IMG/VR virus record: IMGVR_UViG_3300050821_006485
Coordinates: 37,203-101,202 of that record
DNA: 64,000 nt
DNA from: a virus
Direction: 5' to 3' (one strand)
Positions 54,490 through 63,515 of the stretch are shown piece by piece. How positions within the stretch are numbered: the stretch's first letter is position 1; each line of letters starts with the position of its first letter. A program made the translations under genes and the position numbers. The notes beneath the pieces were generated by a model that made no database searches, was not told where the DNA came from, and was given only the letters and a program-made list of their open reading frames with translations.

Positions 54490-54682
54490 TTAGATGGTCC
54501 TCCTCGTACCACTTCTCTGTCTGCCCTTCAATGTTATCGTGGAAATAATCAAAGGCCCAATCGTCGTCTATCAGCTTCAGTTCCTTGATGGCCTTAGTAT
54601 ATACCTTGTCTCGTTCTTTGTTTAGCCGGGCAATTTGCTTTTTATATTGCTGAGCGGTTGATAGTCTGGTTTTCTTTGCCAT
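54482..54682 (-). CDS. small helical protein, 66 aa
   Basis: I choose ATG 54682 (MAKKTRLS) with AGAAGGA upstream; ATG 54691 has no spacing for a site. The chain is a charged coiled coil (QYKKQIARLNKERDKVYTKA) followed by an acidic end DDDWAFDYFHDN. It overlaps the RNA ligase gene by 41 bases. Function unknown. Confidence 0.52.
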   Translation of the reverse strand: MAKKTRLSTAQQYKKQIARLNKERDKVYTKAIKELKLIDDDWAFDYFHDNIEGQTEKWYEEDHLSD

Positions 54683-55844
54683 ACGCCACATCCTTCTCTA
54701 GGAATTTATTCGATACTACCTTAAGAATTAGCCGACCGAGCCCGCGCACATACCGCTCGTTTACTGGACGAATTACAATACCTTCTCTTAATCCCTTGGC
54801 CCCCGGCACGGCGGTTTGCCCATCTACTAATTCCCAAGGAATGTCCTTGAAAGCTCCCGTGTAGAGTATGGGTACCCATTTAACCTTTTGTATATTAAAT
54901 AGGGCAGTAAGTTCATTTCTAGCGGCAGCGTGCATCCAGGCCCCATCGGGCGTTCTAATATCAAAGGCAAAAAGTTGAGGTTCAGAACTCCCATATTGGA
55001 AGTTGCTGCCTTGGCTCGGAGTTACTTCGCCGTATAAACCATACCCTAGATATGCCCGGCACCATTCCTCGATCCAAGGTTGGGACTTTAGTACATCCCG
55101 CCAGATACACTTAGCGTTTACCGCCTTCCACTGTGTTCTAGAGCCCGCGTACATATGTTCGTCACGAAATACAAACCTCGCGTTCGACCCGTGAATTTTT
55201 TCCGTAACTTCAACCTGTTCGTTGGGCTCGAATGCATCCTTGTAGTTCTTAAGGGCCTCTACATCGTACACCGGCATATCGACGCCTTCTTCTGTGCCAT
55301 AGTCGTTCGTACCCCGCGTGCGGATGCGAAGGAAGTGGAGGATATAGTAGAACCAACCCTTGAGACTGCGCGGCCATCGCTTAGCCTTCTTGAAGGTCTC
55401 GTTATCCGCAGAAGTTTCCTTGCCCGCGTCGGGGTCGTAGTGGGTGATGCCAAGGCGTTCCGATACGTCTGCGCCTTCAACAATGCCTGGATAAAGCTGG
55501 CCCACTTCTGCATACAAAACATTAAAATCTGTAACCGGCAGAAGCAGGCCTTCCGACCATTCTCCCCTAAAGCGCTTTACAGTAATACGCCTGCGTTTCT
55601 CCGGTACTGTTCCATCAAGCCCTACGTGCGCTTCCCAAATAAAAGCAAAGGGAGGAGTTTGCGGGATCACACTATCAGGTACGATGTAAACGCCCAAATC
55701 TCCCGCTTTGAATTCGCCTTTCTTCACCACTACTTGATAAGTAGTGTTAGGAATGTCCAGTAATTCTAAGGTATCTGCGTTAGGATGCACATGGGCAGCG
55801 CCTAGTCTCACTACAACTGCGCGATGGTTTGCCTTCTTTTCCAT
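54642..55844 (-). CDS. RNA ligase, Rnl5/Rnl2-like, with N-terminal OB-fold-like domain
   Basis: The nucleotidyltransferase motif I is TEKIHGSN with Lys216 as adenylated residue (KxHG of Rnl2-type ligases). YGLYGEVTPS (motif IIIa/III), LREGIVIRP (motif IV) and LKVVSNKFLE (motif V) follow. The first 105 residues (VVRLGAAHVHPNADTLEL, then GDLGVYIVPDS) form an OB-like domain as in Deinococcus Rnl5-type ligases. It would seal RNA breaks, for example in tRNA cut by host nucleases. The Rnl1-like gene is directly upstream with adjoining stop and start. Confidence 0.87.
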   Translation of the reverse strand: MEKKANHRAVVVRLGAAHVHPNADTLELLDIPNTTYQVVVKKGEFKAGDLGVYIVPDSVIPQTPPFAFIWEAHVGLDGTVPEKRRRITVKRFRGEWSEGLLLPVTDFNVLYAEVGQLYPGIVEGADVSERLGITHYDPDAGKETSADNETFKKAKRWPRSLKGWFYYILHFLRIRTRGTNDYGTEEGVDMPVYDVEALKNYKDAFEPNEQVEVTEKIHGSNARFVFRDEHMYAGSRTQWKAVNAKCIWRDVLKSQPWIEEWCRAYLGYGLYGEVTPSQGSNFQYGSSEPQLFAFDIRTPDGAWMHAAARNELTALFNIQKVKWVPILYTGAFKDIPWELVDGQTAVPGAKGLREGIVIRPVNERYVRGLGRLILKVVSNKFLEKDVAYGKENQTINRSAI

Positions 55845-56966
55845 TTATTCTTCCCTCCTGAAGGGGTCCTGGTCCTTTGTCTTTTCCTTTATCATTCCCC
55901 ATATTACGTCATCGTATGGCCGCTTGTCAAGCATTCTGAATAGCACAGCGCTTACGCTCTTCCTATCCCCTAGCGTAAAGAACTCGGCCAGCGCTTTCCT
56001 AGCTTCCTTGTCCTCCCCGTCTTTCGGTAGTGTACATGATTCGTAAATCGCCTTGGCCTTCTGCTCGATTCTACCGTATTCTGCTTGTAAACCATTCTTC
56101 CAGTAATTAACCCACTCCTGATAATGGCTGGGCGTGTTGTCCAACAATTCCGAGAAACTTTGACCATCTCTGAGCAGTTCCCAGATAGCTTTGGGGCTAA
56201 TAGACGTGAGCAATCGGTGTAGCCTTTGATACTCTAAAAATTTTATTTTGAGCTTTAGCGGCGGTTTTGGGCCTAGATGCCACGTAAGGACATAACCCTC
56301 GGCGTTCTCCGCCTCTTTATCGATCGTATTAAATCTTACGTCCTCCAGCTTCTTGTCAAATTTCTCTACTAGCCTACACCCGTTTAAAGATGCTAAATTT
56401 TCTAACTCGGGGCGACACAATTCTTCGCCGGTCTCAATGTTTATTAGGGTCAGAAGTTCTAGACCTTCCCAATCATATTTAACCACGATTCTGTTGTCTG
56501 GATAAACAATCTCAAACAAAGGCGTCCAACCGCTGGGCCAAATAGCTTTGGACAAATTTTTGTAGTACCACGTAGAAGCCCACGCAGCTTGGTCTGAAAT
56601 AAACGAGCCGCGAGTAGCTATGGCGGGCGTTTCTCCTACACGAAAATATACACCTAAACTTCCATCAGTTTTGGAAGTGACCTCTGGCAACCCTGGGGGC
56701 AAGTTCTCTACTGCCGTCTCTGGCCTATATGCGGTCCCAAGATTAAAGAACTTAGGGAACGGCCTAGCTACAACTTCCTGCGTAGCCGTATTGACAATCA
56801 AGCCCCGGCACTTGCATGTCACATCATCCCAGATACTCTCGAACATCGCCTTCTGCCCATAGTTGTAAATGGTCAGCGGCGCGTAGCGATGGTGCTGGGC
56901 GTTTACCACGCGGTTCTTGACGTGCTCAGCGAGTAGGTCTACGTCTAGGTAATCGGCTAGTTTCAT
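55845..56966 (-). CDS. RNA ligase 1 (T4 Rnl1-like)
   Basis: ATG 56966 overlaps the preceding stop as ATGA; an upstream frame start at 57020 is unlikely. Motif I TSKTDGSLG places the catalytic Lys at position 99, the same number as in T4 Rnl1. CRGLIVN, VARPFPKFFNLG, WTPLFEIVYP (motif III), NAEGYVLTW (motif IV) and LKIKFLEYQRLH (motif V) are typical. T4 Rnl1 repairs tRNA cut by the PrrC anticodon nuclease. Two ligases of different families in one operon suggest an RNA repair function. Confidence 0.9.
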   Translation of the reverse strand: MKLADYLDVDLLAEHVKNRVVNAQHHRYAPLTIYNYGQKAMFESIWDDVTCKCRGLIVNTATQEVVARPFPKFFNLGTAYRPETAVENLPPGLPEVTSKTDGSLGVYFRVGETPAIATRGSFISDQAAWASTWYYKNLSKAIWPSGWTPLFEIVYPDNRIVVKYDWEGLELLTLINIETGEELCRPELENLASLNGCRLVEKFDKKLEDVRFNTIDKEAENAEGYVLTWHLGPKPPLKLKIKFLEYQRLHRLLTSISPKAIWELLRDGQSFSELLDNTPSHYQEWVNYWKNGLQAEYGRIEQKAKAIYESCTLPKDGEDKEARKALAEFFTLGDRKSVSAVLFRMLDKRPYDDVIWGMIKEKTKDQDPFRREE

Positions 56967-57199
56967 TTCGCTTTTACCCGCATCAGCTTGTCTTGCTGAA
57001 GCTTTAGGATACCTTCCCAAGCAGCCGTTATGCGTTCTGGCTTAGCATCACCGGGTAACTCCGCCACGGCTTCAAAGTAATTTTCTCCACTGCCGGACTT
57101 GGTAGTAAGTCTGACCTTACCGCCGAACTCTTCACTAAAAGTTTGAAACACTGGGTCCTCCTTTGGATGATTGCGCTTATCAAATTGAAACGGTCTCAT
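56963..57199 (-). CDS. hypothetical protein, 78 aa
   Basis: ATG 57199 (MRPFQFDK) has GAGG upstream in good position. The chain has a beta-alpha look (GKVRLTTKSGSGENYFEAVA, ERITAAWEGILKLQQD). It overlaps the primase-helicase end by 20 bases and the Rnl1-like gene as ATGA. Function unknown. Confidence 0.52.
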   Translation of the reverse strand: MRPFQFDKRNHPKEDPVFQTFSEEFGGKVRLTTKSGSGENYFEAVAELPGDAKPERITAAWEGILKLQQDKLMRVKAK

Positions 57200-59816: not shown

Positions 59817-59892
59817 TGGTGGGCCTGCTTGGACTCGAACCAAGAACCTACGGATTATGAGTCCGCTGCTCTGCCAATTGAGCTACAGGCCC
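59817..59892 (-). tRNA. tRNA with CAU anticodon (Met or Ile2)
   Basis: On the minus strand this folds as a complete cloverleaf: acceptor GGGCCTG/CAGGCCC, D arm around AGCTCAATTGGCAGAGC, anticodon loop CTCATAA with stem GCGGA/TCCGT, and T arm CTTGG-TTCGAGT-CCAAG, followed by encoded ACCA. The discriminator is A. A CAU anticodon can be elongator Met or, if lysidine-modified, Ile2; the sequence does not decide. The 5' end lies under the stop of the upstream HNH gene. Confidence 0.95.
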
Positions 59893-60149
59893 GGTCTCCA
59901 GCCACCTACCCTTTCGAACTTGTCCTCAGTTATATGATAGATTAACCTGTGTGAATGTATGGCATCGTGGCAGCACGAACAAAGACAGATTAGGTTCTCT
60001 TCTGTGTCAGGACCTCCGTGACTTCTAAACACGCAATGGTGCGCGGTTAAATTCTCTCTGTAGCCACAATGGCGGCACTTAAAACCGTCTCTTTTAAAGA
60101 CCCTTTGGCAGAGTATCTGGTACTCTCTAGGCTTTAACCGTAGGCTCAT
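59883..60149 (-). CDS. HNH endonuclease, 88 aa
   Basis: A compact McrA-like HNH domain: FKRDGFKCRHCGYRENLTAH, HHCVFRSHGGPDTEENLICL and CSCCHDAIHSH, with zinc Cys pairs and the HH-N-H catalytic set. Phages carry such nucleases for packaging, anti-host defence or as mobile elements. The stop codon TAG lies inside the tRNA D-arm side of the acceptor stem at 59883-59885, an intimate overlap with the tRNA gene. Confidence 0.87.
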   Translation of the reverse strand: MSLRLKPREYQILCQRVFKRDGFKCRHCGYRENLTAHHCVFRSHGGPDTEENLICLCSCCHDAIHSHRLIYHITEDKFERVGGWRPGL

Positions 60150-60691: not shown

Positions 60692-61195
60692 TTATATAAT
60701 CTCCTTCATTGTTCCTAAGGCCGCTTTACGCACCGCAATTGCTTCGGCTTTAGTTTTGAACAGTCCAAGATGTTTTCTTTTCCCAGGTTCTGGATAATAC
60801 CTAGCTCTCCACACACCTTCGGAAAACTCAGTAACTCCGTCGCCTTTAGCGCCCACTTTAACAGCGTGTCTACGGTTCCCTAATTGGCTTCTCCACTCTA
60901 AATTGTCAACAACGCAATTGGCTTTAATAGTGTCCTTATGATTGACTTCTGGCAAATTTAATGGGTTTGGTAAAAAAGCCCCAGCAACCAGTCTGTGCAA
61001 AGATACGGTTTTTCCTTGTAACTTTACACTTAAATACCCGGCCTTATCTGCTGTAGGAGTAAGCAGTCCTCCAGAAGAGCCTTGCCTTCTTTTACTCCAT
61101 ACTCTTCCTAAGCTACTGACCTCATAGTTTTCAAAACCAGCAACCGGTTTCCACAGTTCATTCTTTATTTTCTGTCTCAATTTCAGTTTGCTCAA
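60692..61195 (-). CDS. NUMOD4-HNH homing endonuclease
   Basis: The N-terminal NUMOD4 motif reads NELWKPVAGFENYEVSSLGR, followed by the HNH core KTVSLHRLVAGAFLPNP ... EVNHKDTIKANCVVDNLEW, a typical I-TevIII/HNH phage mobile nuclease. The C-terminal segment VWRARYYPEPGKRKHLGLFK with TKAEAIAVRKAAL is an AP2-like DNA-binding domain. It abuts the metallophosphoesterase and overlaps the next gene by 38 bases. Confidence 0.93.
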   Translation of the reverse strand: MSKLKLRQKIKNELWKPVAGFENYEVSSLGRVWSKRRQGSSGGLLTPTADKAGYLSVKLQGKTVSLHRLVAGAFLPNPLNLPEVNHKDTIKANCVVDNLEWRSQLGNRRHAVKVGAKGDGVTEFSEGVWRARYYPEPGKRKHLGLFKTKAEAIAVRKAALGTMKEII

Positions 61196-62249: not shown

Positions 62250-62570
62250 CGGTAGAGAGGCCTTGCGACCCCTCACCCTTCGACCGCTTTAGGCGGCCAT
62301 AGCTAGCTCGTTAGAGTTGGCTTGTTTTGTTTCGTGTCCTGATTACGCTGGCCACGACATCGCGGGATTGTCCACTGCTGTCTCATCGTCGCCGTCGAAT
62401 CCTTTCACGCCCGTCAAAGCCACCATTCAGTCGAGAATTATAGTTCACTACCCCTGCCGGGGGGTGCTATTCCGCGAGACCCGCTGAAAGGCTCTCGGTA
62501 TTCATCATGGTGGCTATGGTGGACGTGGCGGCATCGAAGCCGCGTCCGACAACCCGGATAACAGTTTCAT
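62250..62570 (-). ncRNA. ssrA: circularly permuted two-piece tmRNA
   Basis: Coding piece on the minus strand begins GGGCGTGAAAGGATTCGACG (5' G at 62412), the conserved tmRNA start, and has the resume GCC at 62319-62321 and the tag ANSNELAMAA ending in TAA at 62289-62291, then a P5-like stem GGCCGC/GCGGTC. The acceptor piece lies upstream: T-arm-like GCGGC-TTCGAT-GCCGC at 62528-62543 (a six-base loop), 3' acceptor CACGTCC at 62521-62527, A73 and CCA at 62517-62520. GGGCGTG and CACGTCC pair in 7 bp (one G-U). Between the pieces, AGCCACCAT and ATGGTGGCT form a 9-bp stem that closes the spacer. P2-like pairing CGACGA/TTGTCG is also present. Confidence 0.9.
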
Positions 62571-62582
62571 ACAACCATAACC

Positions 62583-63515
62583 CTAAATTTCCACTGGTGG
62601 TAACACTTCGCTGTCGTACTTACTTGATGATTCTTCCGCAACTGCTTCGTCTACTTCTTCCGCTTCTTGTTGCGCTTGCTTTTGACCATTACGTTGTGCC
62701 ATGTATTCCAGAAAAAGCGCTCCGAACTCCTGCTTATCTTTCTCCTGCATAAGAGCGAACTTCCGGCAAGCCATAACATACGGACCCCCTTTGGTTAACT
62801 GTGTTGAGTAAATTTCGAAGCTAAAGTCGAAGAGGTTGACAGATGGCAATGGCGGTAACTGCCCTCCGGGAGGCGGAACAAACCCCGGAGTAGCATTGAA
62901 TAACCCCGTGGTCTTGTCGAACGTGTACCCCCGTTCTTTGTTTCGTAGGCGTATGTTAGACGTTTCCTTTGCAATCAGACCGTATAAATCGCGCTCCATG
63001 TGGTCCTTGAACGGCTTTACGCTCTTTCCGCCCACGTCTAGGTAATGGAACGTCTGGCTCTCGCGGTCTGCCAGAAACAAATGGTAGAACATCTTGCACT
63101 TGGGCAGAAGATCATTCTTCTGAGAAGCCGGGCGTGGATCATTTCTCCACGCTTCCCACATTAGATCACCAAATTTACAGCTTGCACAATACAACGCGGG
63201 GGGATTCTTTGCCTTTGGGTGTGGCTGAATGTTGTCCAGCGAGAAGCACTCCTTGCCTTGTTTCACATTAGGGTCCCAAGGCGGCCAATAATCGCGCTGT
63301 GTTCTGACATCAAACAGCACAACTTTCAAGGAAGGAACCTGTTCACCAGTTGCGGTATTGCGAAACATCCCCGGCGTCCCCCCTTCTTTCGTCGTGGACT
63401 TCGCTACCAACTCCAAAACGGTAGGCCGGATGTTGCTAAACAGACTCCCGGCGAGTCCCAGGCCGCCCTTAGCGAGCGGTGCCTGGTTGTTCAATACAAC
63501 TAAGTCCTGTCCCAT
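62583..63515 (-). CDS. conserved phage protein, possible ssDNA-binding type, 310 aa
   Basis: MFRNTATGEQVPSLKVVLFD followed by VRTQRDYWPPWDP, ALYCASCKFGDLMW, KCKMFYHLFLAD and VKPFKDHM is a family found in many tailed phages near replication genes. I recall it as hypothetical, with an OB-like core and zinc Cys. An acidic low-complexity tail (EEAEEVDEAVAEES) at the C-terminus resembles those of phage single-stranded DNA-binding proteins. That role is an inference. Confidence 0.6.
   Translation of the reverse strand: MGQDLVVLNNQAPLAKGGLGLAGSLFSNIRPTVLELVAKSTTKEGGTPGMFRNTATGEQVPSLKVVLFDVRTQRDYWPPWDPNVKQGKECFSLDNIQPHPKAKNPPALYCASCKFGDLMWEAWRNDPRPASQKNDLLPKCKMFYHLFLADRESQTFHYLDVGGKSVKPFKDHMERDLYGLIAKETSNIRLRNKERGYTFDKTTGLFNATPGFVPPPGGQLPPLPSVNLFDFSFEIYSTQLTKGGPYVMACRKFALMQEKDKQEFGALFLEYMAQRNGQKQAQQEAEEVDEAVAEESSSKYDSEVLPPVEI

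Follow-up and report, generated by a model that had tools for sequence, protein, structure and literature searches.

A gene for a circularly permuted, two-piece tmRNA lies on the minus strand of the window, by which we mean the whole 64,000-nt stretch of DNA analysed here (positions 37203-101202 of a virus record that is 101,202 b long). In an Rfam search the locus matched RF04321 (tmRNA_permuted) over model positions 1-213 of 213, with 82.4 bits against a cutoff of 47 (E 2.8e-15). A first-pass annotation had proposed this identity, which is confirmed with a slightly wider extent; of the covariance models it had named for checking, beta_tmRNA (RF01850) gave 45.4 bits, below its curated cutoff of 84. 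The RF04321 score is also well below that of most viral permuted tmRNAs (82 bits versus up to 151). ARAGORN, run on the window, did not call the gene; its short T-loop (see below) was considered as the reason and rejected, since many other genes with a 6-nt loop are called by this program. The 500 bases at the locus are identical in a second viral record (79,670 b), which makes an error of a single assembly unlikely; as a flipped complementary pair is moreover impossible from one indel, assembly error was ruled out.

Table 1. Features of the tmRNA gene and its surroundings, in window positions
Feature	Position	Strand	Basis
Circularly permuted two-piece tmRNA gene	62576-62251	minus	RF04321 full-length match
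Acceptor (3') piece: P2 strand, T-arm, 3' acceptor strand, encoded CCA	62517..62576	minus	RF04321 match
T-arm GCGGC-TTCGAT-GCCGC, 6-nt loop (62538-62533), C53-G61 closing pair	62528..62543	minus	sequence
3' acceptor strand CACGTCC, discriminator A, CCA	62517..62527	minus	7/7 pairing with GGGCGTG
Spacer, 104 nt, predicted to be removed in processing	62413..62516	minus	sequence and RNAfold, -35.8 kcal/mol
Spacer closing stem AGCCACCAT/ATGGTGGCT, perfect 9 bp	62515-62507 with 62426-62418	minus	sequence, RNAfold
Coding (5') piece: acceptor strand, D-loop GG, P2 strands, tag, hairpin	about 62251..62412	minus	RF04321, sequence
5' acceptor strand GGGCGTG	62412-62406	minus	sequence
Tag frame GCC...TAA, ANSNELAMAA	62289..62321	minus	sequence; RF04321 ends at stop codon
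GCAA-capped hairpin 3' of stop, placed as last hairpin of beta_tmRNA	62251..62277	minus	beta_tmRNA alignment
310-aa gene of unknown function, directly upstream of tmRNA	62583..63515	minus	7-nt gap; weak phrog_5686 match
Small gene right after tmRNA, with frameshift	62216-62019	minus	weak phrog_19191 match of the joined protein
HNH endonuclease with NUMOD4 motif	60692-61195	minus	
HNH endonuclease	59883-60149	minus	
tRNA-Met	59817-59892		
Two adjoining RNA ligase genes	54642-57020	minus	phrog_968 and Rnl1-like phrog_562

The order of the parts is the one required of a permuted tmRNA, with the 3' acceptor strand upstream and the 5' acceptor strand downstream (Table 1). As the first-pass annotation had noticed, the two acceptor halves pair in 7 of 7 positions across the break; the stem includes G3-U70, and ACCA stands at the end of the 3' piece. 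In the coding piece GGGCGTG is followed by ATTCGAC, and the tag frame that had been read there is present (GCC AAC TCT AAC GAG CTA GCT ATG GCC GCC TAA) and gives a small hydrophobic C-terminus; the hairpin right after its stop codon is present as well. The spacer is closed, again as proposed, by a stem of its own, and from this architecture processing into two RNAs would be expected. The tag does not appear to be special: the ending -MAA, considered as a phage speciality and rejected, was seen in 10 of the 93 permuted tags left after dereplication, with either class of loop, a count that covered viral tags alone. Other viral tmRNAs offer less usual frames. In the permuted L030, L066, L089, L093 and their relatives our script finds one long frame each (AMSFTGN...KSKVALAA), which may represent longer tags or in-frame upstream sequence, and two one-piece viral tmRNAs (L183, 1608-2015; L199, 1122-1547) have unusually long ARAGORN tags of 30 and 32 aa that lack a terminal Ala-Ala, end in SENVLV and VEAAV, respectively, and may not be degradation signals.

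The 310-aa gene upstream is probably co-transcribed with the tmRNA, and the only relative found for its protein was that of a near-identical record. The small gene on the other side reads MKTIEIKVTSKDIQNGEPNKK and continues as SETCPIALAATRVGF... in the +1 frame, the frameshift lying at AAAAAGTGA; because the second record is identical, it may be real, either as a frameshift site or as a broken gene. The tmRNA and the tRNA-Met share their arm with the two RNA ligase genes, a pair as in T4-type tRNA repair, and both HNH endonuclease genes are located between tmRNA and tRNA-Met, one of them with the NUMOD4 motif typical of homing enzymes.

Both pieces of the tmRNA are united by a P2 helix, as indicated by cofolding and by an own-partner test in which the P2 5' strand of the window preferred its own partner to 108 of the 110 partners from other viral tmRNAs (rank 3 of 111). 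The test has little power when all tmRNAs are considered (median rank 24 of 110), since many of the partners resemble one another. The sole moderately divergent relative, L227, is a permuted tmRNA on contig PSRA01000113.1, binned in a 'Bacteroidetes' MAG; its P2 helices are preserved with changes on both sides relative to the window, and its own partner ranks first of 111, every foreign partner being worse. Genes for a DNA polymerase of phage type, for a DnaD-like helicase loader and for a phosphoesterase are found on this contig, which therefore most likely belongs to a phage and was misbinned in the MAG. L227 shares with the window an identical 31-nt stretch of T-arm and acceptor, the permuted order, the 6-nt loop with C-G closing pair and a phosphoesterase gene after the tmRNA (39% identical to the downstream one of the window), but differs in its tag (AETKPLAFAAAA by ARAGORN) and in the sequences of P2 and spacer. 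Acceptor stems of the viral tmRNAs vary with compensation (GGGGGTG, GGGGATG, GGGGCTG, GGGCCTG, GGGCGTG), and G3-U70 is present in 225 of 225 tmRNAs with an assigned acceptor, a set in which 7/7 acceptor pairing was a selection criterion and U70 belonged to the search pattern, the choice of G3 rather than A3 being free. Covariation, which the first-pass annotation had named as decisive for its acceptor and P2 pairings, was thus found for both helices. Selection on the window gene itself is measured thinly, as its close relatives are the identical record and L227 only.

A T-loop of 7 nt closed by G53-C61 is among the most conserved features of tRNA-like molecules. The Rfam consensus for permuted, beta and one-piece tmRNA has such a 7-base loop with a G-C closing pair, whereas the loop of the window has 6 nt (TTCGAT) closed by C53-G61, the real peculiarity of this gene and one that the first-pass annotation had overlooked; it thereby departs from the T-loop consensus of RF04321 (GGGUUCGAUUCCC), a deviation that is no criterion for membership. 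We describe the variant as the loss of one flipped-out nucleotide (59/60) together with inversion of the closing pair to pyrimidine53-purine61. The strict conservation of G53-C61 has been explained by C61 holding the flipped 59/60 dinucleotide (PMC7912444), and with one of these bases gone the need for this pair may disappear. Retained in the variant are the U54-U55-C56-R57-A58 core, which as TTCRA had been fixed in the search pattern and hence gives no independent evidence of conservation, and the D-loop GG, which all 111 permuted viral tmRNAs compared possess. The contact between T- and D-loop is therefore most likely kept despite the change, the core and its partner both being in place.

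To place this loop among viral tmRNAs, 2.9 million viral contigs were scanned with tmRNA-type T-arm patterns, all matches being listed for 6-base arms and for 7-base arms with a flipped pair. A 6-nt loop with flipped pair occurs in 124 T-arms (68 C-G and 56 T-A), while G53 was found in 2 of the 126 arms with 6-nt loops; among 7-base viral arms the flipped pair was seen 15 times, as T53-A61. Permuted tmRNAs with a 7-bp acceptor account for 94 of the 6-base flipped arms and one-piece tmRNAs for 10 (window and L227 included). Dereplicated permuted tmRNAs with 6-base loops have C-G in 24 cases, T-A in 22 and G-C in 0, those with 7-base loops among the matches listed have G-C in 62 and T-A in 3, and the two classes are comparable by closing pair only, never by number.

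When a tree was calculated for 111 permuted viral tmRNAs without the T-arm, the 6/7-nt label required about 21 changes, and the switch therefore recurs; the tree is a quick one from short sequences, which places the window on a long branch of unsupported position, and the well-supported branches alone demand 4 to 6 changes for the main groups. Close pairs with different T-arms are otherwise alike, as in L110 (GCGGGTTCGACCCCCGC) and L186 (CCGGCTTCGATGCCGG), which are 91% identical elsewhere over 181 bases. The loop might switch in place or T-arms might recombine, and either would amount to repeated replacement.

Among 84,980 species genomes of bacteria and archaea the C-G form was found in 5, and one of these is the phage contig of L227; the cellular rarity refers to the C-G form, as the sampling for T-A lay outside the groups to which permuted tmRNA is native (alpha- and betaproteobacteria, cyanobacteria). 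The other four contigs (two Patescibacteria-like, two Omnitrophota) have surroundings of cellular type. In two of them, L223 and L225, ARAGORN calls one-piece tmRNAs, and in the phylum of L223 the 6-base pattern matched one of 116 genomes, L223's own, on which the search was centred. Among 297 Bacteroidota genomes the 7-base pattern is present in 36, every one with G53-C61, and the 6-base pattern, searched with both closing pairs, solely in the genome that holds L227. A general shortening of T-loops in these phages was rejected, because tRNAs on the same viral loci have a 7-base T-loop in 233 of 233 cases, a count in which ARAGORN may favour 7 nt. BLAST against 50,697 phage records, queried with three 31-mers from T-arms and with three complete tmRNAs of the 6-nt class, gave only partial or gapped matches and no isolated phage with a 6-nt loop. 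SmpB (PF01668) had no match in the 101,202-b record, nor in 49 viral records with 6-base loops, which may be fragments, and a phage SmpB co-adapted to the odd loop was dismissed on these grounds.

The architecture of the gene, its base-pair support, its tag and the class and distribution of its T-loop were established by computation, and with them we consider the locus very probably a phage-encoded circularly permuted tmRNA gene that works through host enzymes and carries a recurrent, virus-enriched T-loop variant. The precursor would be a single RNA, probably made in one transcript with the upstream gene (which ends at 62583), and would fold via its P2 and acceptor helices; enzymes of host tRNA processing would excise the 104-nt spacer, and coding and acceptor pieces would stay joined by base pairs. 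Host AlaRS could then charge the tmRNA through G3-U70, and host SmpB and EF-Tu would bring it to stalled ribosomes, where (A)ANSNELAMAA would be added to nascent chains as a proteolysis tag of the usual type, such that the host tmRNA might be supplemented or replaced during infection. The conserved parts suggest that this is probably a working phage tmRNA reliant on host SmpB, with a T-loop change that would be tolerated or selected in a working RNA. The low score relative to most viral permuted tmRNAs and the value below the beta_tmRNA cutoff make partial decay of the window gene conceivable, and it may have occurred.

One tentative reading of the loop, held with low confidence, is that phages repeatedly and independently rebuilt it under selection to escape an agent that reads T-loops, the RNA still working, and that the loop marks viral tmRNA; mobile introns or integrases, modification enzymes and a defence nuclease are candidates for such readers. 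Neutral drift is a possible, if doubtful, alternative, in which loss of a bulged nucleotide would be tolerated along with the flipped pair, the constraint on phage tmRNAs would be weaker and recurrence would be due to chance. The 15 viral 7-nt loops with T53-A61 might then be intermediates, and the 6-nt C-G form also exists in the four cellular-type genomes (Patescibacteria-like and Omnitrophota). However, drift predicts mixed closing pairs, yet G53 is confined to the two exceptions among 126; the D-loop GG is invariant, and the repeated coupled change is, for the C-G form, rare in cellular genomes.

If escape from a reader of the T-loop is pursued further, mobile DNA is one agent to consider. 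Genes for tmRNA are a frequent target of integrases from islands and prophages. All 883 tmRNA sequences known to contain an intron carry it within the T-loop, in most cases at position 7 of the loop (PMC11915505), a position missing from a 6-nt loop, and a rewritten loop could thus evade group I introns and integrases by removal of their target. Such an explanation would agree with the recurrence of the switch across many lineages and with a change in tmRNA that left the tRNAs of the same loci with 7 nt, but we regard it as rather unlikely: most introns are from Bacillota (PMC11915505) whereas these tmRNAs resemble permuted proteobacterial types, and an insertion-proof sequence requires no particular closing pair. 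That the flipped 6-nt loop instead evades proteins reading it, be it TrmA, TruB or a nuclease of the host or of a rival phage, seems unlikely. Here the altered feature, the canonical G53-C61 pair, would be a fitting one, and TrmA methylates tmRNA while TruB probably modifies its T-loop (PMC3968760, PMC7912444), with U54 and U55 as proposed targets, but the agent itself is only hypothetical and losing the modification brings no known benefit. A decaying or inhibitory tmRNA, which would bind SmpB and thereby prevent trans-translation in the host, the role proposed for the DS6A phage form that lacks a tag, is very unlikely, for although DS6A sets a precedent with a form consisting of the tRNA-like domain only, a type of molecule that inhibits tmRNA (PMC4131195, PMC11915505), and although the odd T-loop could alter SmpB or EF-Tu binding and the Rfam score is low, the gene has retained a complete tag frame as well as P2 helices, G3-U70 and CCA, and an inhibitor has no need of a tag. 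Why the loop changed we can only infer, and the weight beyond that given to drift, mobile DNA and proteins reading the loop goes to causes we have not thought of.

The variant recurs in permuted and one-piece viral tmRNAs and could serve as a simple sequence marker for viral tmRNA. It also represents a natural test of what the T-loop contributes to trans-translation (SmpB binding, modification, T-D contact) and may lead to an agent, as yet unknown, that acts on tmRNA. New here is a two-piece tmRNA from a phage and, revealed by it, a T-loop variant enriched in viruses, of which we found no description in a search of the open-licence literature, where absence is weak evidence.

The first-pass annotation had presented a two-piece tmRNA in a phage genome as unfamiliar, but such genes are known: 53 were found by ARAGORN, 50 of them aquatic, and published in 2022 (PMC9004378), and bacteriophages contribute 79 sequences, counting every form, to the tmRNA database (PMC11915505). 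In one T-arm pattern scan of IMG/VR, a permuted tmRNA with a pairable acceptor was recognised on at least ~78 more viral contigs. Two-piece tmRNA is thus widespread in uncultivated phages and sometimes missed, by ARAGORN in the window and by annotation in an Alcaligenes phage.

With the RF04321 family of alpha- and betaproteobacteria and cyanobacteria, the tmRNA of the window shares the order of the pieces, acceptor, T-stem, P2 and tag frame, and it differs by its 6-nt T-loop with C53-G61, its long structured spacer and its viral encoding. Phage Melnitz, for which a two-piece tmRNA has been described, and other aquatic phages likewise have a permuted tmRNA in a phage genome (PMC9004378), that of Melnitz being alphaproteobacterial-like and accompanied by a glutamine riboswitch. 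The isolated Alcaligenes phage vB_Af_QDWS595 (NC_070849), a betaproteobacterial phage, also encodes a permuted, beta-like tmRNA (L307), near 54,656-55,887 and absent from the features annotated there; unlike that of the window it has a canonical 7-nt G-C T-loop and the tag ANDNVYAAAA, and it offers a tractable model for phage permuted tmRNA.
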